This document shows, one piece after another, positions 1 to 12,445 of a stretch of DNA of 12,445 nucleotides. This stretch comes from Chloroflexota bacterium (GTDB lineage Bacteria; Chloroflexota; UBA6077): the NCBI GenBank assembly GCA_023380955.1, contig JAMCTB010000202.1, positions 1 to 12,445 on the forward strand, given 5' to 3'. The translations under genes and the position numbers were made by a program. Below the pieces are notes generated by a model. That model saw only the letters and a list, made by a program, of their open reading frames with translations. It ran no database searches and was not told the DNA's origin. Positions within the stretch are counted from its first letter, which is position 1. Each line of letters begins with the position of its first letter.

Positions 1-2253
1 ATCCAGGCAGCGCTCAAGAGCATCCAGCGCCAGTATCCCGAGCTGAGCTTCGGTATAGTCTTCGACCAGTCCACGTTCACTCGCGAGTCCATCAGCGACG
101 TGCAGCTCTCGCTGCTGATGGGCGGCATCCTGGCCGCCATGGTCGTCTTCCTCTTCTTCCGCGACCTGCGCAACACCCTCGTAACGGTGGCGGGGTTGCC
201 GGTGGTGGTGCTGGGAACCTTCATCGCGCTGAACGCCCTCGGCATCTCACTCAACATGATCTCCATGATGGCTCTGTCGCTCTCGGTGGGGCTGCTGATC
301 GACGATGCCATAGTGGTCAGGGAGAACATCTTCCGTCACGTGGAGATGGGGGATGACCCCAGGGTGGCGGCTGGAAGGGGTGCGGCGGAGATCGCCATGG
401 CGGTGCTTGCCGTCACCTCCACTATCATCGCGGTGTTTCTGCCGATCGCTTTCACCGGCGGGATGATAGGTATGTTCCTTCGGGATTTTGGGCTCACGAT
501 AAGCGTGGCGGTGCTGATCTCGCTGGCCGAGGCATTCACCCTGGCCCCGATGCTGTCGGCATACTTCTTCCACCGGGTCGATCCGGCTCAGGAGGAGAGA
601 CGCAGGAACGGGAGGTTCGCCAGGGGCTTCGAGGCCTTGAACCGAGGATACGGAAGACTGCTCGGCTGGGCCCTCAGCCATCGACGAATCGTGGTCGCCT
701 TCGGTGTGGGATGCCTGGTGGCGAGTCTGGGCCTGATACCGCTGACCAACCAGTCTTTCCAGTCCACGGCGGATCAGGGGGAGTTCGCAGTAATGATGGA
801 GCTAAAACCCGGCTCCAGCCTGCAGGAGGCGGATGCGGCCGCTCGAACAGCGGAGCGGCTGTTGAGGGAAGAACCGAGCGTGGCAGAGACATTCGCCAAC
901 GTGGGTTCCAACGGGGGCGCGGCCAACACCGCGTCCGTCGGGGTCAAGCTGAAAACCAGGGGACACACCAACGAGGTGGTGAACCGTGTCCGCTCCTCCC
1001 TTAGCGCGGCTCTACCAGGTGTGAAACTCTCCTACAATACCCAGTCGGCGGCCGCGGGCGCGCTGGGGGCCGTAGCGGCCAGTCACATGGCTAGCCTGCC
1101 GATACAGTATAAGATCCAGGGCCCCGACTTCAACAAGCTGGATCAGGTCTCGCAGGAGGTAGCGGCGAGACTGGCAAGTGTGCCCGGCGTAGTTGATGTC
1201 GATCGGTCCTCCAAGGAGGGAGGGCCGCAGCAATCCATCGTGCTCGACCGCGCCCGGGCGACCGACCTGGGGGTTTCCGCGAACCAGGTGGCATCTACTC
1301 TTCGAACGATGGTGAACGGAGACAAGGCTGGGACCTTCCAGACCGCGGACAGGGATGTTGACATAGTGGTTCGGCTCACGGAGGCGGATCGAGACAACCT
1401 GAACAAGATCCTGCAGCTTCCCATCGCTACCAGCGGTGGCAGGCAGATCCCCCTCTCGGCTGTGGCCGGAATGCTCCCGTCGACAGAGCCCGCCAAGATC
1501 GATCGCGAGAACCGCCAGCGCCTGGTTTTGGTAGCGGCCAACACCGACGGCGCCGACGCCGGGCCGGCCCTGGCTAAGGCGAAAGCCGCGGTGGCCTCGA
1601 TCGTGTTGCCGGACGGCGTGGTGATCAAGGAGGGGGGCGACGCCGCGCAGATGGCGGAGTCATTTGGATCGCTCGGCATGGCCATGGCCCTCTCCATAGC
1701 ATTCATGTACATGATCCTGGCATCCCAGTTCGGGAGCTTCGTGCACCCCTTCACCATCATGCTCGCGCTTCCGTTCTCTATCATCGGGGCGCTGCTGGCT
1801 CTGATACTGGCGCACTTCAGCCTCGACTCCCTGGCGATGATCGGGATGATCCTGCTGATGGGGCTGGTGACCAAGAACTCGATCCTGCTCGTCGAGTTCA
1901 CCAATCAGTTGAGGCGCCGGGGCCTCAGCACGCGGGACGCGATCCTGCAGGCGGGACCCATACGGCTGCGACCCATCATGATGACCACCCTCTCGATGAT
2001 CTGCGGCATGCTCCCGGTGGCCGTTGGTTTCGGGGCTGGATCGGAATATCGCCAGCCCATGGGCGTCAGCGTGATAGGAGGGGTCATCACGTCGACGGTC
2101 CTGACGCTGGTTGCCGTGCCTGTCGCCTACTCGCTCATAGACGACGCCGGCAAATGGATCGTGCGCAGGTTCCGGGGGAAGCCGGCCGGCTCAGAACAGC
2201 AGCTATCGCCGATTGCCAGCCGACTACCGCCGTCCAGGGTCGAGACCACCTGA
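1..2253 (+). CDS. RND (HAE1/AcrB-type) efflux transporter permease, 5'-truncated
   Basis: This is an inner-membrane proton-driven efflux pump subunit of the AcrB/MexB type, expected to work with a periplasmic adaptor. The frame is open from the first base of the window, so the gene begins outside it; 750 residues are present and about 300 N-terminal residues (TM1 and the start of the first porter region) are missing. The visible part begins just before TM2. It carries the paired aspartates of TM4 in [10 protein letters not shown] (codons at 301-306), corresponding to the proton-relay Asp pair of AcrB, and the TM10 lysine in [13 protein letters not shown] (codon at 1873), corresponding to AcrB Lys940. 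A second periplasmic loop (about 700-1650) and a second helix bundle (about 1670-2150) follow. The tail after the last helix is short, basic and hydrophilic. The family is certain. The substrate cannot be read from sequence, and a metal-exporting HME pump is less likely from these motifs. No partner gene is visible downstream. Confidence 0.95.
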
Positions 2254-2308
2254 ACGAAAACTACGGTGAGGTATGCAGTAGGGAGCCGGCTGGCAGGAAG
2301 AAGTGGAT

Positions 2309-2379
2309 CGTCATGCCCGCTTTCGCGGGCATCCACTGGCTGCACAGGCGCCTGGATTCCCGCGTACGCGGGAATGACG
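2309..2379. repeat. REP-like double-palindrome element with terminal inverted repeats
   Basis: This 71-bp intergenic element has near-identical inverted ends: CGTCATGCCCGC at the left and GCGGGAATGACG at the right. Each end is also half of its own hairpin. On the left, ATGCCCGC (2313-2320) pairs with GCGGGCAT (2325-2332) across a TTTC loop. On the right, 2356-2375 is a perfect 20-bp palindrome centred on GTAC. The interior ATCCA and TGGAT segments are also complementary, so the whole element can fold as two nested cruciforms. Read as protein, it gives the MPAFAGI and IPAYAGMT strings known from a very widespread family of dispersed palindromic repeats in GC-rich bacterial genomes. It lies between convergent genes, where it could stop or stabilise transcripts from either side. 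No T-tract follows either hairpin, so a classical intrinsic terminator is not supported. Confidence 0.8.
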
Positions 2380-2389
2380 GTTCACGTAG

Positions 2390-2399
2390 GCCCGCGGGC
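2390..2399. repeat. short GC palindrome in the convergent intergenic region
   Basis: GCCCGCGGGC is a perfect 10-bp palindrome just past the right end of the double-palindrome element and about 45 bp beyond the stop of the - strand Fe-S gene. On the - strand it could contribute to 3'-end folding. It has no loop and no T-tract, so it is only a weak candidate signal. Confidence 0.25.
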
Positions 2400-2444
2400 T
2401 TCCCCTAAGAGATCATGCCGATCCCATCTTGGCCTTGGTATTTG

Positions 2445-3257
2445 TTACGCCAGGGGATCGACAGCGTCCGTAGCAATAGCCTGGGAAGAGCCGTTCTTCT
2501 TTCTGTGCTTCTTTCCCAGGGGACAGACTGCCTGGCAGAGAGCACACTGGCAGTAGTCCATGTATGTATTGCACGCTGCCCGATCGATGCTGGGCCGGCT
2601 GGTTTGCTCGTCGAAGCTAAGCGCCCCCACCGGGCAGGAATCGATACAGAGGTGGCAGCTGCCGCAGATCTCGCCGGGGTTCCCCACGGCGGCGGCGCGT
2701 GTGCGCTCCAGCTCGGCATCGGTGACCACACACACGAACCGAACTCGAGGTCCGTACTCCGGACTTATAACGAGGCTGTTCTTGCCGATCACGCCGAGGC
2801 CGGCTGCGGCAGCTATGGGTTTGAAGGCGAAGGGGGTGTCCCAGATACCTTTGCCCTGACTCAGCAAGGCTGTCTGCAATGGGGTTGCTCTCTCTTCGCT
2901 GTCGGCGTCCAGATGGCGGACCCGCCCGGCAGAAGGGCCGTCCACCGGAAACGCGGCGTAGCCCTCGTCTTCAAGGAAGCGCGCCGTTCTGATGGCAAGA
3001 TGGTCGAGCTGCGGGTAGTTGTAGGAAGCGAGGTAGTTGCGCAACACGTCTGAGAAAAAGTCTTTCTTGCCCTGCAGGCGGTCCCAGATAGCATCCACCA
3101 TCTTGAGGGCGATCACCACCACGCTCCTGGCGCCCGGCACCAGTTCTTCTGGGCGGTAGCCTCGTGTAACACCTTCCAACTCCACTACTGGAACGGCGGC
3201 AACCAGGTCGGCGCCGATGGAGCCGGTCCATTCGACAACACGTTGCGTAAGGCTCAT
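2445..3257 (-). CDS. Double-cluster 4Fe-4S protein, short QueG/RdhA-related
   Basis: This 270-residue protein belongs to the group often annotated as epoxyqueuosine reductase-like 4Fe-4S proteins. The N-terminal part (about 14-50, GADLVAAVPV to LVPGARSVVVIAL) resembles the QueG N-terminus. The segment AGLGVIGKNSLVISPEYGPR (152-171) resembles the corrinoid-domain core shared by QueG and RdhA. Two [4Fe-4S] sites follow. C198, C201, C204 and C208 form the first (CxxCxxCxxxCP). C238, C241 and C245 (CxxCxxxCP) with the distant C229 form the second, and C236 is an extra cysteine. Like QueG and RdhA it may bind cobalamin, but that is inferred from fold similarity. It is shorter than QueG (usually about 350-380 residues), lacks the C-terminal HEAT-like repeats and sits in a transport/catabolic operon, so I do not call it queG. 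The ATG follows AGGGGGAG at 5-nt spacing, 20 nt after the UroD-family stop. It may be an electron-transfer or reactivation partner for the neighbouring corrinoid enzymes. Confidence 0.85.
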   Translation of the reverse strand: MSLTQRVVEWTGSIGADLVAAVPVVELEGVTRGYRPEELVPGARSVVVIALKMVDAIWDRLQGKKDFFSDVLRNYLASYNYPQLDHLAIRTARFLEDEGYAAFPVDGPSAGRVRHLDADSEERATPLQTALLSQGKGIWDTPFAFKPIAAAAGLGVIGKNSLVISPEYGPRVRFVCVVTDAELERTRAAAVGNPGEICGSCHLCIDSCPVGALSFDEQTSRPSIDRAACNTYMDYCQCALCQAVCPLGKKHRKKNGSSQAIATDAVDPLA

Positions 3258-3277
3258 AGCAGCTCCCCCTTCAGCGA

Positions 3278-4570
3278 CTAAGCACCTGCACCAGCCTCGG
3301 CATTGCCCCCCGGCCGGATGTTCATCAACCTCTTGTCGGCCTCGGTGAGCACGACTTCAGCCTCTCCAACGGGTCTCTCCTCTAATTCGCCACCATTCGA
3401 ATACCATCCATACTTCAGCGCGGTGTCGAAGCACTCAACGATATTTTCTGGTGGCACGTCCCGCTGAATATTGTGCACGGTGGCAAACACAAAGCCGCCC
3501 CCGGGTTTCAAGTCCGAAATTCGGCGCCGCACCTCCTGACGCACATCCTCAGGAGTCCCGAATGGCAACACTCGCTGCGTGTCGACACCTCCTCCCCAAA
3601 AGGTGATCTTGTCCCCGAACTCGGCTTTCAGTCGCGCCGTGTCAGCCACGCTCGGACAGGAGACCTGCACGGGATTCCAGGCGTCGTAGCCTGCGTCGAT
3701 AAAATCGGGCAGGAATATGCCTTCATCCCCGCAGGCATGGTTGAGAAGCTTGACGTGAGGAGCCTTACCCCTAATGAAAGCAGCAATGCGCTGGTGGGCA
3801 GGCTTGAACAACTCCCGGTACACGGAGGGCCGCATCGAGGGGCCGTCCTGGAACGCAAGGTCGTCCGAAACGATCGCTACCTGGATGTACTTGCCCACGG
3901 CGTTCAGGATCCCATCCCACTGCTTTGTGTGATAGTCCTCCAGACGCTCCACGAGCGCTTGGACGAACTTCGGCCGGCTGGCTATATTGTAGAAGTGATC
4001 CTCCCAGCCACACAGAAAGGCCGACAGAGCCACCACCCCGCTGCTCCACTGCGAATTCATCACCAGGCAGTAGTCGGAGTTCTCGTATACCTCCCGAGCT
4101 TCGTCAGCCAGCCCCGCCACCCGACCCGGATCATAAGGATCAGGCCAGGGAAATTTGTCCAAATCCTCCAGTTCCGCACCCTTCAGCGGGTTCCCTACCA
4201 CGTCGTGGTAGTAGCCCTGGGGAGGTCTCTCCCAGCGAACACCCCAATCGTCGACGAACCATGATCGCCCATTGATCTCTCGATGAACCTGGATTTTGTG
4301 ACTCTCGGGGCCTCGCGGCCACAGGCCCCAGCAATCCACATCAAAGCGCTTCATGATGCGCAGATCAGGGCGCACGCTCATGGAGACGAGAGAATTTATG
4401 ACCGGTTCGCCGCCTTCGAAGCCCAGGTACTTCTTGAGCCTTTCGTGGGCGTCGACGTGCATACTCGTAAAGTTCGACATGCCGCCGATATCTATGGGTA
4501 TTCGATCTCCCTCTTGATGGTCAAGAGCCCGGAGAACGCGTTCGCGATGAGACAACTTAGCTCGGCCCAT
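3278..4570 (-). CDS. Uroporphyrinogen decarboxylase-family protein (MtaA/CmuA-like)
   Basis: This 430-residue protein has the UroD TIM-barrel fold, which covers both uroporphyrinogen decarboxylase and cobamide-dependent methyltransferases such as MtaA, MtbA and CmuA. Family marks are the N-terminal RERVLRALDHQEGDRIPIDIGG (about 9-30), the HACGDEGIFLPDFIDAGYDAWNPVQ block (278-302) and the C-terminal VHNIQRDVPPENI (365-377). H278 and C280 match the HxC zinc ligands of MtaA-type enzymes. At the position of their third ligand (normally Cys before a P-rich ENI/ENV segment) this protein has H366. A genuine heme-pathway UroD is unlikely: the protein is longer, carries the HxCG zinc motif and sits in a transport/catabolism operon. 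The last 30 residues form a Gly/Ala-rich tail outside the core. The ATG has GAGGAG at 9-nt spacing. Neighbours are an RdhA-like protein 90 nt upstream and the short Fe-S protein 20 nt downstream. Methyl transfer to or from a corrinoid is the leading guess, but the substrate is unknown. Confidence 0.85.
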   Translation of the reverse strand: MGRAKLSHRERVLRALDHQEGDRIPIDIGGMSNFTSMHVDAHERLKKYLGFEGGEPVINSLVSMSVRPDLRIMKRFDVDCWGLWPRGPESHKIQVHREINGRSWFVDDWGVRWERPPQGYYHDVVGNPLKGAELEDLDKFPWPDPYDPGRVAGLADEAREVYENSDYCLVMNSQWSSGVVALSAFLCGWEDHFYNIASRPKFVQALVERLEDYHTKQWDGILNAVGKYIQVAIVSDDLAFQDGPSMRPSVYRELFKPAHQRIAAFIRGKAPHVKLLNHACGDEGIFLPDFIDAGYDAWNPVQVSCPSVADTARLKAEFGDKITFWGGGVDTQRVLPFGTPEDVRQEVRRRISDLKPGGGFVFATVHNIQRDVPPENIVECFDTALKYGWYSNGGELEERPVGEAEVVLTEADKRLMNIRPGGNAEAGAGA

Positions 4571-4660
4571 AAGGGCTATCTCCTCAATCAGAGCTTTCCG
4601 GTAGTCTGGGCTAAGGACAATCCAGAGTCCCAGATCTTGTAAGCTTTGGCGAAGCGCACA

Positions 4661-5986
4661 TCACAGGACGTCATCCCAGAATGTGTCCGGCATCGGCGTG
4701 CCGTAACCAAACGCGTTGTCGGCGCCCACTATGAGGGGATCAAGGGCCGGGAATCGGGCAATCGCGGCCTTGACGACTTGGTGCGACCAGTGGGAACCCT
4801 TGTTGAAGGGGCAAGACGCCAGGCAAATGCCACAGTTGGTGCCGACGTGGTTCCAGTACTTGTAGCACTTACCGTGGTTGAGCTGCCACTGTTTGACCCC
4901 GGCACCGCTGAAGTCGCCGGCAGGTTCAAATGAGCGAAACCCCCTTGGGATCGCCTGCGATGGGCAAGCCTCTGCACACTTCCCACAAGAGTCGCAGAAG
5001 GTCGTGGCGCCGGTCTCGATCGGAACATCTGGCTCTAACGGCAGGTCGGTAATCACCTTGCAGATTCGGCAAACCGGCCCCCAGACCGGATGGATCAGCT
5101 TGGCGTTGCGCCCCAGTTCGCCCAGGCCCGCGTCAATTGCCAGCGGGATGTTGAGGGCGGTGCAGTTGGATGAGGGAATCGCGTGGTAGCCCAGGCCACG
5201 AATGAACTCCGCGACGCTTGCGACGAACCGGCTTATAGAGGAGTAGGTCGCCATCGTTGCCGCCAGCTCTGCAAGGGTCGGCGCGCTGCGAACGCCCTCC
5301 CTCAGCATCGGCAGCACGAAAACCGCGACATATTTCATGCCCGTTGGGATCACCTGGGTGCGATCCTCAAGTTGCGCTGGCTCATCGACGTGCTCGTAGC
5401 CGCCCTCGTCTGAGAACCTAATGGGATAGCTTTGCCCGGTCTCCGGGTCGAACCAATCGGCGTAAACCCATCGCCGATCCAGAAGCGCGATGCCTACGTC
5501 ACCTGCCCCGTAGATGCGGCCGATCTTCTTGACTACGCGCGCGTTTGTTGCCGGATCGCCCGACCACCTCCCTACGCCTGCCGGAATTCGCGGTCCGATT
5601 GGCTTCCACGAGGTCGGGCCATGGTTTGGGACGTTAATGCCGAAGTTAGTCATCGCTTGATTGGCCATGGACGCATTGTTGAAGGCCCAGTCGAGGACGC
5701 CAAAGCCACCTTTCTGAGCCTGAACATGCTTGGCTCGAACCGCATCCATGTTGCTCTCAGGAGGATAGATTTCCGGTTGCCAGAGGCCGCGCCTGGTCAT
5801 GTTCATCTTCTGATTAAAGCGCTGGTAATCCGGCTGAACCTCGTATCGCTCTGCCGCGGTGCGATCGGTATGCTTCATCCCGGCCACCGTTGCCGCGAGC
5901 GTTCCCCGATACGTAGAACGGGCCGAACGACAGGACAGGCTATCGAACAGGGCGGAAAGAGATAGTTCTCGCGTAGGCTTCTTCAT
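4661..5986 (-). CDS. RdhA-like reductive dehalogenase homologue lacking a Tat signal
   Basis: This corrinoid- and 4Fe-4S-dependent reductase homologue has 441 residues from the ATG at 5986. That ATG follows GAGG at 5-nt spacing; an in-frame GTG at 6001 would add five residues and has a poorer ribosome site. RdhA features (ATG numbering) are an N-terminal YEVQPDYQRFNQKMNM segment (48-63), the core FIRGLGYHAIPSSN to AGLGELGRNAKLI to TDLPLEPD (about 261-320), and two clusters: C331/C334/C337/C341 (CDSCGKCAEACP), and C374 with C385/C388/C392 (CYKYWNHVGTNCGICLASCP). Y248, N274 and R307 have exactly the spacing (26 and 59) of Tyr246, Asn272 and Arg305 of PceA from Sulfurospirillum multivorans, so the catalytic site looks intact. 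There is no RRxFxK Tat motif, no hydrophobic leader, no adjacent RdhB anchor and no fused flavin/ferredoxin reductase as in NpRdhA-type enzymes. It should therefore be cytoplasmic. It starts 25 nt after a permease stop, so it is probably cotranscribed with the importer. Substrate unknown. Confidence 0.88.
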   Translation of the reverse strand: MKKPTRELSLSALFDSLSCRSARSTYRGTLAATVAGMKHTDRTAAERYEVQPDYQRFNQKMNMTRRGLWQPEIYPPESNMDAVRAKHVQAQKGGFGVLDWAFNNASMANQAMTNFGINVPNHGPTSWKPIGPRIPAGVGRWSGDPATNARVVKKIGRIYGAGDVGIALLDRRWVYADWFDPETGQSYPIRFSDEGGYEHVDEPAQLEDRTQVIPTGMKYVAVFVLPMLREGVRSAPTLAELAATMATYSSISRFVASVAEFIRGLGYHAIPSSNCTALNIPLAIDAGLGELGRNAKLIHPVWGPVCRICKVITDLPLEPDVPIETGATTFCDSCGKCAEACPSQAIPRGFRSFEPAGDFSGAGVKQWQLNHGKCYKYWNHVGTNCGICLASCPFNKGSHWSHQVVKAAIARFPALDPLIVGADNAFGYGTPMPDTFWDDVL

Positions 5987-5991
5987 AGTAG

Positions 5992-5995
5992 CCTC
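5992..5995 (-). promoter_or_regulatory. Shine-Dalgarno deciding the start of the RdhA-like gene
   Basis: GAGG lies 5 nt before the ATG at 5986 on the - strand. It favours that start over the in-frame GTG at 6001, in front of which I see only a weaker purine stretch. Confidence 0.6.
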
Positions 5996-6011
5996 GCCCA
6001 CCTGTCGCCCA

Positions 6012-7007
6012 TCACGAAGGCGGCCGAGGCTCAGCCGCCCACGCCCTTCTCCTCCGCGCCCAGCGCTCGCGCAGCCGCGGTGTCTCGGTCACCAACTCGA
6101 TGGCGATGACGACGAGCAGAATGGCGCCTGTCGCCAGGCTCTCCACGAAGTAGGGCGCGCCCTGAAGATTGATGTAGCTGCCGATGAACCGCAGGATGAA
6201 GACGCCCACCGCGATGCCGATGGCGCTCCCCTTGCCGCCCTCGATACGCACGCCCCCGACTAGCGCCGCCGTGGCCGCGGGCAGGGTAAGGTCGGCAAGC
6301 CCGAACGGCGTCGCGCTTCCTGATTTGAGAGATACCAGTGCTCCGGCCAGTCCCGCAAGGGAACCGGACAACCCGAAAACGATGACGAGTGTGCGGGTCA
6401 GAGGTATGCCGGCTGCGACGGCCTCCAGTCGGCCACCGCCGATGGCGTAGATGTCACGTCCCACACTCGAATAGGTCATGAAGATCCAGAGCGCCGTGAA
6501 CAGTGCAATCGTTATCAGGCTGAAGGGCGAGAACAGAAACAGCTGGTGCTTCACCACGTCAGCGATATCGAGATCACGCAGGACGACGGTATTCTGGTTG
6601 CAGACAATGTAGGCGAGCCCCCGTAGCGCCATCATCGATCCTACAGTGAATACGAGCGAGTTGATCTTGAGGAGCCCGATGGCTAATCCCTGCAACCCGC
6701 CCAGGATCATGGCAACGACGACCGCGATCAGCACCGCCGGAATCGGCCCGATCGAGTTGCTCAGCATTACAGCTATGATTCCAGCTAGCCCGGCCATCGA
6801 ACCGACGGATAGATCCAGCTCGCCAGCGATCATGGAAATCCCTATCGCGAGAGCGGCGAGGCCGGAGAAGGCGAAGCCTTCGAATAGCGTGTACACGTTC
6901 GCAGGAGTCGCGAACGAACCATCCCGAATACTGAGGAAGACGAAGATAGCCGCCGCGAGAATCGCCCGGCTAAGTAGTTGGTAGTCCAATCGCCTGGTAG
7001 TCATCAT
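6012..7007 (-). CDS. Ribose-type ABC transporter permease 1 (RbsC family)
   Basis: This 331-residue polytopic inner-membrane protein belongs to the branched-chain/ribose permease group (RbsC, XylH, MglC). It carries the family signature GELDLSVGS at residues 62-70 (consensus GGIDLSVGS), the C-terminal GGVRIEGGKGSAIG block (about 252-265) and a strongly hydrophobic body with roughly eight to ten predicted helices. It ends in a basic, Arg-rich cytoplasmic tail. The first ATG overlaps the stop of the upstream permease gene (ATGA), a mark of translational coupling. A second ATG follows immediately, so the start could be at 7004; an AGAGGT element inside the upstream gene serves either one. It forms the membrane channel with the second permease and the double ATPase. 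It is a full-length, canonical member; the transported compound cannot be assigned. Confidence 0.93.
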   Translation of the reverse strand: MMTTRRLDYQLLSRAILAAAIFVFLSIRDGSFATPANVYTLFEGFAFSGLAALAIGISMIAGELDLSVGSMAGLAGIIAVMLSNSIGPIPAVLIAVVVAMILGGLQGLAIGLLKINSLVFTVGSMMALRGLAYIVCNQNTVVLRDLDIADVVKHQLFLFSPFSLITIALFTALWIFMTYSSVGRDIYAIGGGRLEAVAAGIPLTRTLVIVFGLSGSLAGLAGALVSLKSGSATPFGLADLTLPAATAALVGGVRIEGGKGSAIGIAVGVFILRFIGSYINLQGAPYFVESLATGAILLVVIAIELVTETPRLRERWARRRRAWAAEPRPPS

Positions 7008-8032
7008 TCGGACCTCTGCCTGAGCAAGTGAAATCCACCAACGCCGACGAGGATCAGCATCCCGATGACGAGGTAACGCACACCCTGGGGCTGTCCGCTG
7101 AGGACCAGAAGGTTATCCAGCAACGCCATGAAGATGGCCCCGATCAAGGTGCGGAGTGCCGAGCCATCGCCGCCCTGGATCGCGGTACCACCGACCACGA
7201 CCGCCGCGACCACGCTCATGTTGAAATCCATATTGTCGAACTGGTCGATCGTCGCCAGGCTGAATTGGGTGGCCACGAATATGCCACAGACCGCGGCGGT
7301 CACGGATGCGATGGCAAAGGCGCTGATCGTGGCTAGTCCCACGGGCAATCCCGATGCCACAGCAGCCTTTCTGTTGGACCCGCACAGCATGATCAGCCGC
7401 CCGAAGCGAGTTCTGTTGAGTACGACCGCGGCGATGATCGTGAACAGGATCACCGACCAACTCTCGGTCGGCACGCCCAACGGCCGGGCTGAGCCGATCC
7501 ACGCGCCACCGTTATCGACCACGCGAATCATCTTTAGCCCAGAGATGATCGCAGCCACGCCGTAGATCACTGCCGCGCCACCTAGCGTGGTTACGATGGC
7601 GTTCGCTCCCAGGGCAACGGCTCCGCCCTGAATCAGGCCGAGTACCAGACCGAGGAGGAGGGTGATCAACAGCGACAGGACCAGGCCCCTGCCGGCCGCC
7701 ATGTTGAGAGCGAAGGTGATGGCACAAATGGCGGCCGTTTCCTGGATCGATAGCGAGAAGAAGTTCCCGGAGATCGTGATGAACGTGGAGCCCAAGGCGG
7801 CGATACCGATCAGAGACGCAGCGCGCACGACGATCTCGAAATTGTCGGCGGTTAGGAAGGCGGGATTCACGAACCAGCCGACCACCGATATCGCCACAAC
7901 GGCGAGGAAGACGCTCGTAGGGGCGACAAGATGGCGCCGGCTGCGTCGCTCGTGGGATCCCGGGAGGGCACCAGGCGCCAGCGGCTCGGCTAGCTCTTGT
8001 TCTGTCACGTCGGCAAGGCTCGAAGTATCCAT
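7004..8032 (-). CDS. Ribose-type ABC transporter permease 2 (RbsC family, divergent signature)
   Basis: This is the second, non-identical permease of the same importer, 342 residues from the ATG at 8032. That ATG overlaps the ATPase stop (TGATG) and has GGAGGT 6 nt upstream; an in-frame TTG at 8035 would add one residue and is less likely. The N-terminus has about 35 hydrophilic residues before the first helix. Where the family has GGIDLSVGS, this protein reads SGNFFSLSIQE (about residues 88-98), so the acidic residue and the glycines of the signature are lost. The C-terminal block GGTAIQGGDGSALRTLIGA is well conserved. Two distinct permeases imply a heterodimeric channel, whereas RbsC-type systems often use one permease twice. 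The divergent signature may reflect an asymmetric pair. The family is clear; the individual role is inferred. Confidence 0.92.
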   Translation of the reverse strand: MDTSSLADVTEQELAEPLAPGALPGSHERRSRRHLVAPTSVFLAVVAISVVGWFVNPAFLTADNFEIVVRAASLIGIAALGSTFITISGNFFSLSIQETAAICAITFALNMAAGRGLVLSLLITLLLGLVLGLIQGGAVALGANAIVTTLGGAAVIYGVAAIISGLKMIRVVDNGGAWIGSARPLGVPTESWSVILFTIIAAVVLNRTRFGRLIMLCGSNRKAAVASGLPVGLATISAFAIASVTAAVCGIFVATQFSLATIDQFDNMDFNMSVVAAVVVGGTAIQGGDGSALRTLIGAIFMALLDNLLVLSGQPQGVRYLVIGMLILVGVGGFHLLRQRSE

Positions 8033-9582
8033 CAACGCACCTCCACCCGCTCATCTGGAGGGCACGTCACGTCCTGCGTGACCCGAACCACGTCGGTATC
8101 TGCCGCTGGCCTCAGGTTGACCAGCCTGCCCTTGTAGAAGCTGGCGATCGTGTCGGCCAGACCGAGCACTTCCTGCACGTCCGACGAAGCAAAAACTACG
8201 GCGAGACCCCGCGCGGCCAGCTTGCGAAGATGCGCGTAGATTTCCGCTCTCGCTCCAACGTCCACGCCGCGCGTCGGCTCCTCAACAAGCAAAACGGCCG
8301 GCTCGATGCCAAGCCACTTTCCAAGAGCGACCTTTTGTTGATTGCCGCCGCTGAGCGTATTGGCGAGGTGCCCGAGGCGCCTGGCGTCGATCTGGAACAT
8401 ACCAGCGAGACTCCCCGCTAGCGTCTTCTCACGCCCGACACTCAGCCAACCGAAGGGCGTTACACGGTCGAGCGCCGGCGCGGTGAGGTTCTGGGTGATC
8501 GTCCTCACCTGAAACAGACCGTCCTGCTTGCGGTCGGCCGAACAGTATGCGATTCGGGCGGCGATCGCATCGCGGCGCCCTTCGATCTTGAGCGGCTTAC
8601 CTCCCAACTGCACACTGCCCTCCAGGATCGGGTGCACCCCGGCGATCGCCTGGAGCATGCTCGCCGCACCACTGCCAATTTGTCCGGTTAATCCAAGTAT
8701 TTCGCCGGCTCGGACTCGCAGGGTGATGGGCTGCCGCAGGCCGCGCGCCAGGAGGCCATCCACGGCCAGTAGCTCAGCGCCGAACGCTGCTGCCTTCGGC
8801 GGGAACATGTCGCCGAGATGCTGGCCGATCATCCGCTCGATAAGCGTCTCTACCGTCAGCTCTTTCACCGAGACAGCAGGTTGTGCGTCGCCATTCCGAA
8901 AGACCGTGACGCGATTGGCGAGATCGAAAACCTCCTGGAGTCGATGGGTCACGTAGATTACCGACCGGCCATCAGCTGCCAAGGAACGCACGACGTTCTT
9001 CACCCTCTCGATTTCCGCGTCGCTTAGCGCCGCCGTGGGCTCGTCCAGGATCAGGATCCGAGCCCGGCGCGACAGCATGCGGGCGATCTCGATTAGCTGT
9101 CGGTCGGCAACGGGGAGCTGGCCGATGGGAATGCCAAGATCAACATCGCTCAGACCCACCAGCTCCAGGAACGGCCGCGCGAGCTCGCGCAGCTTGCCCG
9201 GCGAGAACAGAGCGCCTCTGGACGGGTTGCAGAGTAGGACGTTCTCGACGACAGACATCGTGGGTACGAGGCTCAGCTCCTGCTGAACCACGGCGATGCC
9301 CGCCCCGAGAGAATCAGCTGGGCCATGGATGGTCACCGGACGCCCGCCGATTCTTATCACGCCGTGATCCGGCCGGTAGATGCCGGTGAGGATCTTAACC
9401 AGGGTGCTCTTGCCAGCTCCGTTCTCGCCGACGAGTGCCATGATCTCTCCGGCGCGCACCTCAAAATCGACGCCGCGGAGTGCCTGAATCGGGCCAAAGC
9501 CTTTCTCGATCCCCACCATCTCCAGGTAGGGCTCAGGGTTGACCTCATAGAGTGCACTTGTGCCACGAGCTTCGGCCGTCAT
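8032..9582 (-). CDS. Ribose/sugar-type ABC importer ATPase, two nucleotide-binding domains (RbsA/MglA/XylG family)
   Basis: This 516-residue double ATPase energises the importer. The first domain has Walker A GENGAGKST (52-60), a signature-like region LPVADRQLIEIARML (156-170), Walker B ILILDEP (176-182) and the switch histidine H213. The second domain has a Walker A-like GQIGSGAAS (300-308) lacking the Lys-Ser/Thr, an intact signature LSGGNQQ (410-416) and a Walker B ending LLVEEPT (431-437) with Glu for the usual Asp. A degenerate second Walker A and the SSD/SSE switch (here ASSDVQE) are normal for RbsA/MglA proteins and do not mean loss of function. Length matches the family (about 500). 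The ATG at 9582 has only a weak purine-rich ribosome site (GGCGGGAAA). It lies 126 nt after the binding-protein stop, the largest gap in the operon, with a stem-loop between. Its stop overlaps the next start. Confidence 0.94.
   Translation of the reverse strand: MTAEARGTSALYEVNPEPYLEMVGIEKGFGPIQALRGVDFEVRAGEIMALVGENGAGKSTLVKILTGIYRPDHGVIRIGGRPVTIHGPADSLGAGIAVVQQELSLVPTMSVVENVLLCNPSRGALFSPGKLRELARPFLELVGLSDVDLGIPIGQLPVADRQLIEIARMLSRRARILILDEPTAALSDAEIERVKNVVRSLAADGRSVIYVTHRLQEVFDLANRVTVFRNGDAQPAVSVKELTVETLIERMIGQHLGDMFPPKAAAFGAELLAVDGLLARGLRQPITLRVRAGEILGLTGQIGSGAASMLQAIAGVHPILEGSVQLGGKPLKIEGRRDAIAARIAYCSADRKQDGLFQVRTITQNLTAPALDRVTPFGWLSVGREKTLAGSLAGMFQIDARRLGHLANTLSGGNQQKVALGKWLGIEPAVLLVEEPTRGVDVGARAEIYAHLRKLAARGLAVVFASSDVQEVLGLADTIASFYKGRLVNLRPAADTDVVRVTQDVTCPPDERVEVR
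8039..8044 (-). promoter_or_regulatory. Shine-Dalgarno of permease 2 inside the ATPase gene
   Basis: GGAGGT sits 6 nt before the ATG at 8032, inside the last codons of the ATPase gene. It supports the ATG start and translational coupling across the TGATG overlap. Confidence 0.7.
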
Positions 9583-9708: not shown

Positions 9709-10911
9709 TCAGTACTTGCACTGTTCTATCATGGATGAGCCCCAGAGAGTCGTGGAGTTCACGTCCTTGGCCAGCACCGGCGGCGAGGGAATGGGGTTGT
9801 ACTTGTACACGGGACCGTCAAGGCTGGGATATTTGTCCTTGTCCATAGGCGGCGCTCCTGTGCCATCTTTTACCGTGCCGTCACGCAGGTACTTGAAGAT
9901 GTTGTCGACCGCGTAGGAGCCTTCGAGCATGGCCGGCTGCAAGATTGTGCCGAACTCGCGCCCCGAAGTGAGGTCACTCAGGTCGCCATGGCAGTTGCCG
10001 CCCACGACGGCCACGTCTTTGCCCGGCTTAAGCCCAGCTTCGTCCAGGGCTTTCATGGCACCTGAAGCCATCGCGTCGTTGTTGCCATACAGCATGTCGA
10101 TGCCTTTAGCCTTGTTAGCGGCGATCATCTGAGCGCCGACTTTGTAACCCGACGCCTCATCCGTGCCGGCTCCCTGCGCATCCAGAACCTGGATGCCTGA
10201 ACCCGCGATCGCCTTCTTGAATCCGTTTGTGCGGTCGACGCCGGGGGAATAGCCCTGCTGGAAGGTGACGATTATGGCGTTGCCCCCTTGGCCGTGCAGG
10301 GTCACGCCGCTCGCCTTCAGCGCGTCGCGCGCCTGCAACATCAGCTTGCCGCCGCTTTCACCGATTCCCACGTCGTCCGGACCGACGAAGGCAGTCCAGA
10401 GGCTCTCGGTGCCCGGCACCGGGTTGAGCCGCACGAACACCGGCACCTTGGTATCGGAGAGGTCCTTGAGCGACGCAACTCCGGCCGAGTTGTCGGCAGC
10501 CCACCATACGTAGGCGCCCGGCTTGTCGGTCTTGGCGACCTGCTGCTGAACCTGAACGTCTTGCTCCTGCTGCTTGAAGTTGTTCTCGATGAACTGAACG
10601 GACAAGCCGAGCTTGTCCGCTTCGGCCTTCGCCCCTTTCTCGTACTGGGCGACGTAGTTGTTCGTGCTCGTGGGGACGAACATCACGATGCTCTTGCCCT
10701 TCACGGACGCGGCACCCGCCGGGCTGGCCTGTGCGGCTGGGGCCTGGGTTGGTTGGGCTTTGGCGGCCGGCTGCGCTGCCGGAGCTGCGGTTGGACTGGA
10801 CGCCGCCGGCCCGCTACAGCCCGCCGCGATCAACAACGCGAAGACAATCATCAGCGCGGGGATTCGCATGGGCCGGAAACCGAAACCGGCTGGCAGGTAT
10901 CTCCTGTTCAC
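9709..10911 (-). CDS. Sugar-type ABC transporter substrate-binding lipoprotein (Peripla_BP_4 / RbsB-like)
   Basis: This ligand-capturing component of the importer has 400 residues from the GTG at 10911. That GTG follows AAGGAGGAG at 3-nt spacing; the open frame runs 28 codons further up, but those codons cross this ribosome site. A downstream ATG at 10869 would still keep the signal. The N-terminus has a basic start, a hydrophobic stretch (about 16-29) and a lipobox-like LLIAAGC with Cys32 as the lipidated residue. A low-complexity Ala/Pro/Thr/Gln linker (about 33-70) follows, typical of surface lipoproteins. The ligand domain (about 72-400) is a type I periplasmic-binding fold, with IVMFVPTSTNNYVAQYEKGAKAEADKLG at its start and MLYGNNDAMASGAMKALDEAGLKPGKDVAVVGG near the hinge. 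It closely follows the ribose/galactose-binding group, but the ligand is not identifiable. Its gene is just upstream of the other importer genes and separated from them by a stem-loop. Confidence 0.93.
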   Translation of the reverse strand: MNRRYLPAGFGFRPMRIPALMIVFALLIAAGCSGPAASSPTAAPAAQPAAKAQPTQAPAAQASPAGAASVKGKSIVMFVPTSTNNYVAQYEKGAKAEADKLGLSVQFIENNFKQQEQDVQVQQQVAKTDKPGAYVWWAADNSAGVASLKDLSDTKVPVFVRLNPVPGTESLWTAFVGPDDVGIGESGGKLMLQARDALKASGVTLHGQGGNAIIVTFQQGYSPGVDRTNGFKKAIAGSGIQVLDAQGAGTDEASGYKVGAQMIAANKAKGIDMLYGNNDAMASGAMKALDEAGLKPGKDVAVVGGNCHGDLSDLTSGREFGTILQPAMLEGSYAVDNIFKYLRDGTVKDGTGAPPMDKDKYPSLDGPVYKYNPIPSPPVLAKDVNSTTLWGSSMIEQCKY

Positions 10912-10914
10912 GCT

Positions 10915-10923
10915 CTCCTCCTT
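10915..10923 (-). promoter_or_regulatory. Strong Shine-Dalgarno deciding the binding-protein start
   Basis: AAGGAGGAG ends 3 nt before the GTG at 10911. It matches the anti-Shine-Dalgarno sequence very well and supports GTG initiation rather than the upstream or downstream in-frame ATG codons. Confidence 0.7.
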
Positions 10924-10958
10924 AGGCGGTGCTTGGCGATGTCGTTCCGTGATCTCCC

Positions 10959-10974
10959 CGGCCCTAGCGGGCCG
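10959..10974. repeat. 6-bp GC hairpin between the M24 and binding-protein genes
   Basis: CGGCCC and GGGCCG pair perfectly around a 4-base loop in the 109-nt gap between the M24-family stop and the binding-protein start. There is no U-tract on the - strand side. It may be a minor processing or attenuation structure. I see no convincing -35/-10 promoter in this gap. Confidence 0.4.
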
Positions 10975-11020
10975 ACTTCGCAGGTTGGACAGCAATCACC
11001 CTCTCTTAGCTGGGACACCA

Positions 11021-12277
11021 TCACGGTTTCAGGCTATCCACCACCTCCCTTTGGACGCCTGGCAGCCAGGTGCAGATCAGCTCATCGCAAGGGTAACCCG
11101 TGATCACCTCGCAGCCGTCGTCCGTGACGACGATCTCCTGTTCGATGCGCGCACCCTGCCTGCTATCTTTGGCGCCGCAATATGTCTCCAGCGCGATGAC
11201 CATATTCTTCTCGATCTTCACGGGTTGCTCCAGCGAGTACAGGCGGCTGATCATCGGTCGCTCTCTATGACTCAGACCAATGCCATGGCCGAACTGGAGG
11301 AAGTACGCCTCTTCTTCATTGGCCATGCCTGTCTCCTGCCCCGTCGGCCAAACGCTGGCGATGTCGGCCGTGGTGATCCCCGGCCGGACGATGTCAATTG
11401 CCTTCTTTAGCCATTCGTAGGCGGTGTCGTATGCCTCGCGCTGGGCCTTGCTTGGGCGACCCACCACGAAGGTTCGGTAGTAGCAGGTGCGATAACCGTT
11501 GAAGGTCTGCATGATGTCGATGTACACGAAGTCCCCGGGGCGTACCACCCGGTCGGTGAAGAGATGCGGGTGAGGACTGGTGCGCTCTCCCGAAACCACG
11601 TTGACGCACTCGACCGAATCCGAACCCATGTCGTACAGTACCTGGTTCGCGATGGCCACAATCTGGTTCTCGGAGATACCCGGCTTGAGCTGCTCCACTA
11701 TATGGCGGTACGTGACGTCCACCATCATCGCCGATATCTTCAGCAGCTCGATCTCGTCCTCCGTCTTGACGAGTCGGGCCTCAAGCATCTGCTCCTGCCC
11801 ATCGACGATCTCGATCCCTTCCTTCTGAAGCGCCTTCATCAGCGGTACGTCGAGGATGTCGACTCCGAGCGGCTGCTTCTCAACGCCAAAGTCGCTGAGC
11901 ATCCGCTTGATCTTCCTGGCGAACTTGTCAGGCAAACCCAACTCACTCGGGACGGTGCTCCGTGACCATGGCTGGGCTTGCTCTATCCTTCCCTTCAGCC
12001 ACGGCGAGGACTGACGCCGCACCTTGGCGGCGCTTGAGACCTCAAAGAGTACAGGGTCGCTGGTGTTGGGCAACAGGCAACATCGCTCCATCTTGTCCCG
12101 TGACCACTCCCCAATGTGACTGCTGGTGACATAGCGGATGTTGTTGTTATCGAAGTTGAGAAACGCCCCAAACCCGGACTTCGCCAGCTGCGCCTTCGCT
12201 CGCTCCAATCGCTGTCTGCGCAGACGGTCGTAATCGACTCTGACCTCGTAGTCAACGCCCATCATGCCAAACGCCAT
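11021..12277 (-). CDS. M24-family (creatinase / Xaa-Pro peptidase fold) protein with altered metal site
   Basis: This 418-residue protein has the two-domain creatinase/prolidase architecture: an N-terminal creatinase-N domain (about 15-165) and a C-terminal pita-bread domain (about 175-410). Catalytic-domain marks are SGERTSPHPHLF (229-240, including the conserved substrate-side His), RPGDFVYIDI (246-255), FGHGIGLSHRERP (329-341), IALETY (361-366) and RIEQEIVVT (377-385). The five metal ligands of the peptidases map to D254, C265, H331, E364 and E379, so the second Asp is replaced by Cys while the +11 spacing is kept. Creatinase, in the same fold, works without metal, so the protein may be a C-N hydrolase or lyase rather than a dipeptidase. 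The ATG follows AGAGGTGG. The start lies 20 nt after the preceding stop, and the binding-protein gene begins 109 nt further on. No signal peptide is seen, so it should act in the cytoplasm, perhaps on the imported compound. Confidence 0.88.
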   Translation of the reverse strand: MAFGMMGVDYEVRVDYDRLRRQRLERAKAQLAKSGFGAFLNFDNNNIRYVTSSHIGEWSRDKMERCCLLPNTSDPVLFEVSSAAKVRRQSSPWLKGRIEQAQPWSRSTVPSELGLPDKFARKIKRMLSDFGVEKQPLGVDILDVPLMKALQKEGIEIVDGQEQMLEARLVKTEDEIELLKISAMMVDVTYRHIVEQLKPGISENQIVAIANQVLYDMGSDSVECVNVVSGERTSPHPHLFTDRVVRPGDFVYIDIMQTFNGYRTCYYRTFVVGRPSKAQREAYDTAYEWLKKAIDIVRPGITTADIASVWPTGQETGMANEEEAYFLQFGHGIGLSHRERPMISRLYSLEQPVKIEKNMVIALETYCGAKDSRQGARIEQEIVVTDDGCEVITGYPCDELICTWLPGVQREVVDSLKP

Positions 12278-12297: not shown

Positions 12298-12445
12298 CTA
12301 GATTCCGATCTTTGGCAGACCGTAGACCGACTTCCAGCCGGTGCTCATCGGCTCCCGAAGATAGGGCTCCATCTCCTCAGCACTGCGCAAGGTAACCTCC
12401 TCCACCGGCGGCACCTCGCCCGCCGGGAATGCGCTCAAGATCTGG
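12298..12445 (-). CDS. Unrecognised protein, C-terminal 49 codons only
   Basis: An open - strand frame enters from the right edge and stops with TAG at 12298, only 20 nt before the M24-family start, so it is probably the preceding gene of the same operon. The visible C-terminus is acidic (an EVPPVEEVTLRSAEEMEPYL stretch) and ends TGWKSVYGLPKIGI. I do not recognise a family from this much sequence. Co-direction, tight spacing and matching base composition support a real gene over chance. Confidence 0.6.
   Translation of the reverse strand, partial: QILSAFPAGEVPPVEEVTLRSAEEMEPYLREPMSTGWKSVYGLPKIGI

Follow-up and report, generated by a model that had tools for sequence, protein, structure and literature searches.

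The closest described relatives of the protein studied here are the respiratory reductive dehalogenase (RdhA) PceA of Sulfurospirillum multivorans and the catabolic enzymes BhbA and NpRdhA. BhbA and NpRdhA have no Tat signal and are cytoplasmic. BhbA carries a C-terminal reductase domain, and in NpRdhA the N-terminal cobalamin-binding domain is duplicated. The preliminary description of this DNA had treated both as reductase fusions, which was right for BhbA; NpRdhA, however, is unfused and is called naturally 'truncated' in the accessible part of PMC10463259. The same part identified the reductive dehalogenase WP_015585978 of Comamonas plasmid pBHB as BhbA. On pBHB (locus L125), the reductive dehalogenase gene (4606-7821) is immediately preceded by that of a TTT binding protein (TctC, 3552-4565). 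A catabolic RdhA beside an importer gene thus has a precedent, and the earlier view that such a pairing is unusual was weakened. Tat-less RdhA homologues lacking RdhB, with intact Fe-S motifs, were described from sediment Chloroflexota and Deltaproteobacteria in the accessible parts of PMC3939436, PMC6129605 and PMC6797604. None of the 12 members of cluster Smkt1 had Tat (same part of PMC3939436), and expressed RdhAs with a missing Tat appeared in part of PMC12090745. A Tat-less RdhA without RdhB is, by itself, already published and not new. Those parts of the papers made no mention of importer adjacency, of the lysine described below (K296) or of pairing with UroD for the sediment proteins. 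Linkage between RdhA and importers as a pattern was not found in the titles and abstracts searched, a scope that excluded most subscription literature. What is new here is a Tat-less clade with recurrent importer neighbours of unrelated families and a shared K296.

We analysed a window of 12,445 nucleotides, the whole stretch of DNA given above, which encodes a Tat-less RdhA-family protein, hereafter RDH. RDH starts at an ATG at 5986 (441 aa), with a GTG at 6001 as an alternative (446 aa), and its stop ends at 4661. It scored 227.9 bits against TIGR02486 (cutoff 160.35) and 43 against PF13486 (cutoff 24.3). The best PDB sequence match was PceA (4uqu, E 5e-62), with 32% identity in the structural alignment, and the structure model had the RdhA fold. 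QueG (epoxyqueuosine reductase) shares the superfamily and the Fe-S motifs with RDH. Identity with QueG was rejected because TIGR00276 gave only 49.5 against a cutoff of 200, and the tree and structure comparison also spoke against it. Family models, trees and structure comparison thus agreed on RdhA membership. Y248, N274 and R307 of RDH (ATG as 1) aligned with Tyr246, Asn272 and Arg305 of PceA, which we take to be the catalytic residues of that enzyme, and the spacings of 26 and 33 were identical. The three residues were conserved in 120/120 listed homologues; for the eight cluster cysteines, conservation was 118-120 out of 120 at each position. The models, the alignment and these homologues confirmed the earlier assignment of an RdhA-family protein with both 4Fe-4S motifs and PceA-like spacing. 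The corrinoid pocket, as judged by the fold and the aligned residues, was not lost, and RDH would bind a cobamide.

RDH differed from respiratory RdhA such as PceA in that neither a Tat signal nor a neighbouring rdhB was present. The N-terminus contained neither an RRxF motif nor a hydrophobic stretch. Among the 120 listed homologues, RRKFI matches were seen in two, neither followed by a hydrophobic stretch, and no hydrophobic stretch was found in the first 70 residues of any. No RdhB-like small ORF lay between RDH and its same-strand neighbours. A hidden Tat signal or RdhB was rejected on the N-terminus and the ORF list, in agreement with the preliminary description. Because the Tat signal is missing, RDH is predicted to be located in the cytoplasm, like BhbA and NpRdhA. 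It lacks the reductase domain of BhbA and the duplicated domain of NpRdhA, aligning only to NpRdhA 250-616. The absence of a Tat signal and of a fused reductase domain supported the earlier proposal of cytoplasmic action with a separate electron donor. At E<=1e-60, RDH was found in 1/400, 1/29, 6/245 and 2/396 genomes of four genome sets. A viral origin was rejected, as none of 48 pattern matches in viral_contigs was a relative by tblastn, and so was a plasmid origin, as none of 20 plasmid records covered 80% of the query.

RDH is part of a run of eight consecutive minus-strand genes (12277 to 2445), all in the same direction in the ORF list. The order was M24, solute-binding protein, ABC ATPase, permease A, permease B, RDH, UroD-family protein and short Fe-S protein (Table 1). 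Neighbouring genes in the run overlap by 4 nt at the closest and lie 126 nt apart at the widest, and from this spacing we infer a single transcript. The RDH ATG lies 25 nt downstream of the permease B end (6012), as previously noted, and 90 nt separate RDH from its other neighbour. The other side of the run is bordered by a convergent RND efflux gene (plus strand, end at 2253). An Rfam scan of the window gave nothing at the gathering score. Promoter and terminator scans were both near shuffled sequence (1 site against a shuffle mean of 2.6, and 9 against 6.3). A perfect 20-nt palindrome, ATTCCCGCGTACGCGGGAAT, was spotted by eye at 2356-2375 between the convergent gene ends; its arms are shorter than the arm of at least 12 used in a search of 2240-2460, which found no inverted repeats.

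Table 1. Features of the window and importer genes directly beside RDH in related loci
Locus	Feature	Coordinates	Strand	Basis
Window	Upstream gene, 3' end only, cut by window edge	12298..12445	-	Translation
Window	M24 creatinase/prolidase-type protein	11021..12277	-	PF00557 + PF01321
Window	Solute-binding protein, Peripla_BP_4 (true start possibly further in)	9709..10995	-	Pfam; YtfQ nearest in PDB
Window	ABC importer ATPase, two ABC domains, AraG/RbsA-like	8032..9582	-	ABC_tran + NCBIfam
Window	Permease A, BPD_transp_2	7004..8035	-	Pfam
Window	Permease B, BPD_transp_2	6012..7007	-	Pfam
Window	RDH, Tat-less RdhA-family protein	4661..5986	-	TIGR02486, PF13486, PDB match, model, tree
Window	Tyr248 codon (PceA Tyr246)	5243..5245	-	PceA alignment; 120/120 listed homologues
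Window	Asn274 codon (PceA Asn272)	5165..5167	-	PceA alignment; 120/120 listed homologues
Window	Lys296 codon, clade-marking residue	5099..5101	-	Alignment + listed homologues
Window	Arg307 codon (PceA Arg305)	5066..5068	-	PceA alignment; 120/120 listed homologues
Window	Two 4Fe-4S motifs, Cys331 to Cys392	4811..4996	-	Pfam, alignment, listed homologues
Window	UroD-family protein, MtaA superfamily	3278..4570	-	PF01208; profile match to MtaA 4ay7
Window	Short RdhA/QueG-like Fe-S protein, 270 aa	2445..3257	-	Family models, alignment, structure model
L003	SBP_bac_5 downstream of RDH		same as RDH	Pfam
L005	SBP_bac_5 upstream of RDH		same as RDH	Pfam
L009	TctC upstream of RDH		same as RDH	Pfam
L010	TctB-like upstream, DASS/CitMHS permease downstream of RDH		same as RDH	TctB by homology
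L011	Xanthine/uracil-type permease (Xan_ur_permease) downstream of RDH		same as RDH	Pfam
L012	TctA upstream, TctC downstream of RDH		same as RDH	Pfam

Trees were used to place RDH among its relatives. In a quick tree of 100 rows, RDH grouped with P0002, P0003, P0005, P0006 and P0007 (support 97) and with L001 (support 100). It sat inside a clade of 33 rows (support 100), none of which was labelled Tat. The Tat rows, the fused BhbA-type rows and QueG all fell outside this clade. A second tree of 99 rows recovered the identical 33 rows, again with support 100. The reference rows had long branches, and therefore the deeper branching order is unsure. The clade was marked by Lys296, which falls in the stretch GRNAKLI of RDH. 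In the alignment, this position was Lys in 28/33 clade rows and Leu in the five SAR202-type rows. It was Lys in none of the 61 aligned outside rows (0/15 Tat rows and 0/46 other rows), and K296 was absent from the PceA-type, Dehalococcoides, BhbA and QueG references. The residue was Lys in 117/120 listed homologues, the others being two Arg and one Gln (A1 took in 31 of the 120). The SAR202-type RDHs, L013-L017, have a long stem branch (0.89) and no importer neighbour, and a change of function is possible in them.

Genes beside RDH were compared in 79 related loci. RDH was placed in 78 of them, L046 being dropped, and the 12 closest (L001-L012) encode proteins 47-62% identical to RDH. An importer component lay directly beside RDH on the same strand in six of these 12, and L006 had SBP_bac_5 two genes upstream. 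Random genes of the same loci gave a mean of 2.35 at +/-1 gene, and six or more were reached in 1.1% of 20,000 draws. The enrichment was weak at +/-2 genes (7/12 against 4.19 expected, reached in 5.5% of draws). In the other 66 loci, five of which are SAR202-type rows from inside the 33-row clade, an importer was seen in none at +/-1 and in one at +/-2 (Fisher 3.6e-6 and 2.3e-6, respectively, for close against other loci). Most importer seeds were taken from the window and the close loci, so that importers of other kinds may have escaped detection elsewhere. L003, L005 and L006 come from one genome and L002 and L009 share a genome too, and L001 and L008 are cut just upstream. Genes in the fetched loci were called by composition; the caller missed both window permeases, and therefore permeases may be undercounted. 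Pfam names were obtained for 20 chosen neighbour proteins and L003, and the remaining neighbours were named by homology or reading. K296 was common to the importer-adjacent RDHs of the close loci; it was also present in close members beside which no importer was seen (L001, L002, L004, L007 and L008).

A Pfam tally pointed in the same direction. Near Tat-less RDHs, SBP_bac_5 was counted four times, TctA three, TctB three and TctC twice among 138 of the 196 near genes. Six or more genes away, SBP_bac_5 occurred twice among 149 of 239 genes and no Tct family was among the 25 listed; this far tally held the top 25 families with at least two members, and one TctA and one TctC of L009 lay in the far set. 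The preliminary description had expected homologues beside RbsC-type importers. Adjacency to importers held in half of the close loci, but an RbsC-type importer was found beside an RDH homologue in 0/79 loci. Searches of the 79 loci with the window neighbours (tblastn) gave no permease, binding-protein or UroD match, and the ATPase matches were scattered ABC proteins. The gene neighbourhoods hint at a family that may reduce imported compounds inside the cell.

Other neighbours of RDH were also recorded. In L005, a UGSC-family protein (PF24696, 5500-6825) directly follows RDH. In L001, it is followed (1727-3823) by a CoA-transferase of class III and a citrate-lyase-type protein (HpcH/HpaI), which suggest a CoA-activated acid pathway. 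A tungsten aldehyde:ferredoxin oxidoreductase-like cluster, recognised by reading, lay at most four genes from RDH in seven loci and further in two; the loci with such genes include L055, L010 and L011. AFOR_C was found in 2/138 proteins within two genes of RDH. A ferredoxin-level redox link to RDH is possible from these neighbours.

The window importer consists of an ABC_tran ATPase, two BPD_transp_2 permeases and one Peripla_BP_4 binding protein. The name 'sugar-type' applies at family level, as all sugar-specific NCBIfam models listed for the four proteins were below cutoff. In an Anaerolineae-class genome (G603, locus L142), SBP, RbsA, RbsC, M24 and UroD genes lie on a single strand, with a UroD 63% identical to that of the window and no match for RDH or the short Fe-S protein. 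This contradicted the earlier claim that the importer is dedicated to RDH, because UroD and M24 are at least equally partners of the importer. Of the overall interpretation, the intracellular reductase in an importer gene run was supported and the dedicated importer was not. Since RDH is missing from the L142 cluster, it may be an add-on. Importer, M24 and UroD thus make up a separate group, which in the window is extended by RDH and the short Fe-S protein. A recent insertion of RDH into such an operon without a functional tie to the importer is consistent with this arrangement. It is also consistent with the closest relatives found in the same database, which reached 94, 84 and 71% for UroD and 88% for the short protein, with none above 68% for RDH. 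However, short contigs could also explain the fewer close RDH relatives. RDH also lies inside the run, close to both neighbours, its composition (GC 0.601, GC3 0.715) resembles that of neighbouring genes, and importer neighbours recur in its clade. We consider such an insertion unlikely.

The window UroD scored 68 against PF01208 (cutoff 23.9), which placed it in the UroD superfamily, and 34.3 against TIGR01463 (MtaA/CmuA), far below the cutoff of 235.4. Its profile matched MtaA (4ay7, E 6.5e-8). The HxC and third Cys of MtaA were taken as zinc ligands in this comparison; HxC was kept and the third position was Gly in the window protein, unlike MtaA/CmuA-type methyltransferases of the same superfamily. 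HxCG occurred in 86/120 listed UroD relatives and PxCG in 0/120. Permease, ATPase and binding-protein genes lay near a 38% UroD in L146. UroD relatives adjoined genes of corrinoid B12-binding proteins and/or TctC-type genes in L144 by Pfam and in further cases by reading. Of 18 further UroD stretches, four had a B12-protein homologue nearby and two an RbsC homologue. UroD genes are abundant in the class of G603 (95/396 genomes at E<=1e-70, with up to 79 first-look candidates per genome). In L145, a UroD lies beside corrinoid-type, pterin-type methyltransferase, sugar kinase-like and aldolase-like genes, as named by reading, and this locus may serve the demethylation of methylated sugar acids. 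The UroD superfamily includes O-, S- and halogen-demethylases, according to part of PMC10418091.

In the case of the M24 protein, comparison with prolidase 3q6d showed Cys in place of an Asp that is presumably the second metal ligand. Because of this replacement, it may not be an ordinary metallopeptidase.

A second locus combined RDH, UroD and an importer. In the class of G603, 2/396 genomes had RDH at E<=1e-60, namely G690 (L157) and that of L158. The L157 order, on one strand throughout, was GntR, PTE, a 133-aa ORF, UroD, PTS EIIC-GAT, RDH, PTS EIIB, BtpA, PTS EIIA and ribulose-phosphate epimerase. RDH thus lies between PTS EIIC and EIIB, with UroD upstream. The L157 RDH was 41% identical to that of the window, scored 28.1 against PF13486 (cutoff 24.3) and, though outside the 33-row clade, also had K296. 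No second case of the L157 arrangement was seen; within its taxonomic order, a relative at E<=1e-60 was found in 3/7 genomes, the other two being at 39-40%. The RDH of L158 had a Tat-type N-terminus (RRDFL), and neither UroD nor any importer seed had a match in that locus. This recurrence of RDH, UroD and importer in L157 is a further point against insertion. It also raises another explanation, in which the RDH cobamide, reduced by its own Fe-S clusters, would replace a corrinoid protein and ATP-dependent activator for UroD demethylation. In neither the window nor L157 was a gene for a B12-binding corrinoid protein recognised, several UroD relatives elsewhere do adjoin one, and the third zinc cysteine of MtaA is missing from the window UroD. 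However, the pairing was seen in these two loci only and in none of the 79 RDH loci, the L142 UroD has neither RDH nor a recognised corrinoid protein, and a corrinoid protein is possibly encoded elsewhere. We regard this explanation as very unlikely.

The short Fe-S protein kept both Fe-S motifs and the Tyr and Arg equivalents, and Asn was replaced by Gly in the alignment. At E<=0.001 it was matched by 129 proteins, and ten others reached at least 38% with half or more of the query covered. Its model (pLDDT 86.8) gave TM 0.50-0.53 to QueG and 0.59-0.62 to PceA. No such protein was found beside UroD in the UroD stretches compared. As a guess, it may be an electron or cobamide partner. No electron donor gene was found within the run.

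It seemed moderately probable to us that the run is a catabolic operon in which RDH would act in the cytoplasm as a corrinoid/Fe-S reductase of an imported polar solute. The host is probably an anaerobic bacterium and probably related to Chloroflexota. The binding-protein-dependent importer would take up a polar organic solute, on which the M24 protein and the UroD-type methyltransferase homologue would act in the cytoplasm. RDH, with its cobamide and two [4Fe-4S] clusters, would reductively remove a substituent, halide or other, from the solute. Tyr248 would be the likely proton donor, with Arg307 and Asn274 in the pocket. Electrons would be supplied by a ferredoxin-level donor whose gene lies elsewhere, or via the short RdhA/QueG-like partner. 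We infer that the imported compound is the substrate of RDH, and the order of the catabolic steps is likewise putative. A narrower form, in which the substrate is specifically an organohalide and RDH a catabolic dehalogenase like BhbA and NpRdhA, PceA-sized and unfused, appeared rather doubtful. Its Tyr/Asn/Arg as in PceA and the function of BhbA, whose gene follows TctC, in halogenated aromatic catabolism agree with it. However, no gene of the run indicates halogenated substrates, the importer family, UroD and M24 point to solutes of an ordinary or methylated kind, and the RdhA superfamily contains non-dehalogenases such as QueG. These readings and the two alternatives above overlap.

It is also improbable, yet conceivable, that the intracellular, importer-coupled K296 family as a whole is not chiefly dehalogenating. 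Together with UroD-type methyltransferases, it would make up a system that needs neither a corrinoid protein nor an ATP-dependent activator, and would supply a self-reduced cobamide for demethylation or reductive C-O/C-N cleavage of imported solutes. Lineages would then have swapped one importer for another (RbsABC, TTT, Opp-type binding protein, DASS, nucleobase permease, PTS), which we hold to be equally improbable. Numerous RdhA-like genes from environmental genomes lack an assigned function, and the clade, K296 and importers make the question testable. The adjoining binding proteins may reveal what uncharacterised RdhA relatives act on, with no need to guess at organohalides. If these substrates are non-halogenated, the common label 'reductive dehalogenase' would suggest more use of organohalides in anoxic sediments and groundwater than there is.
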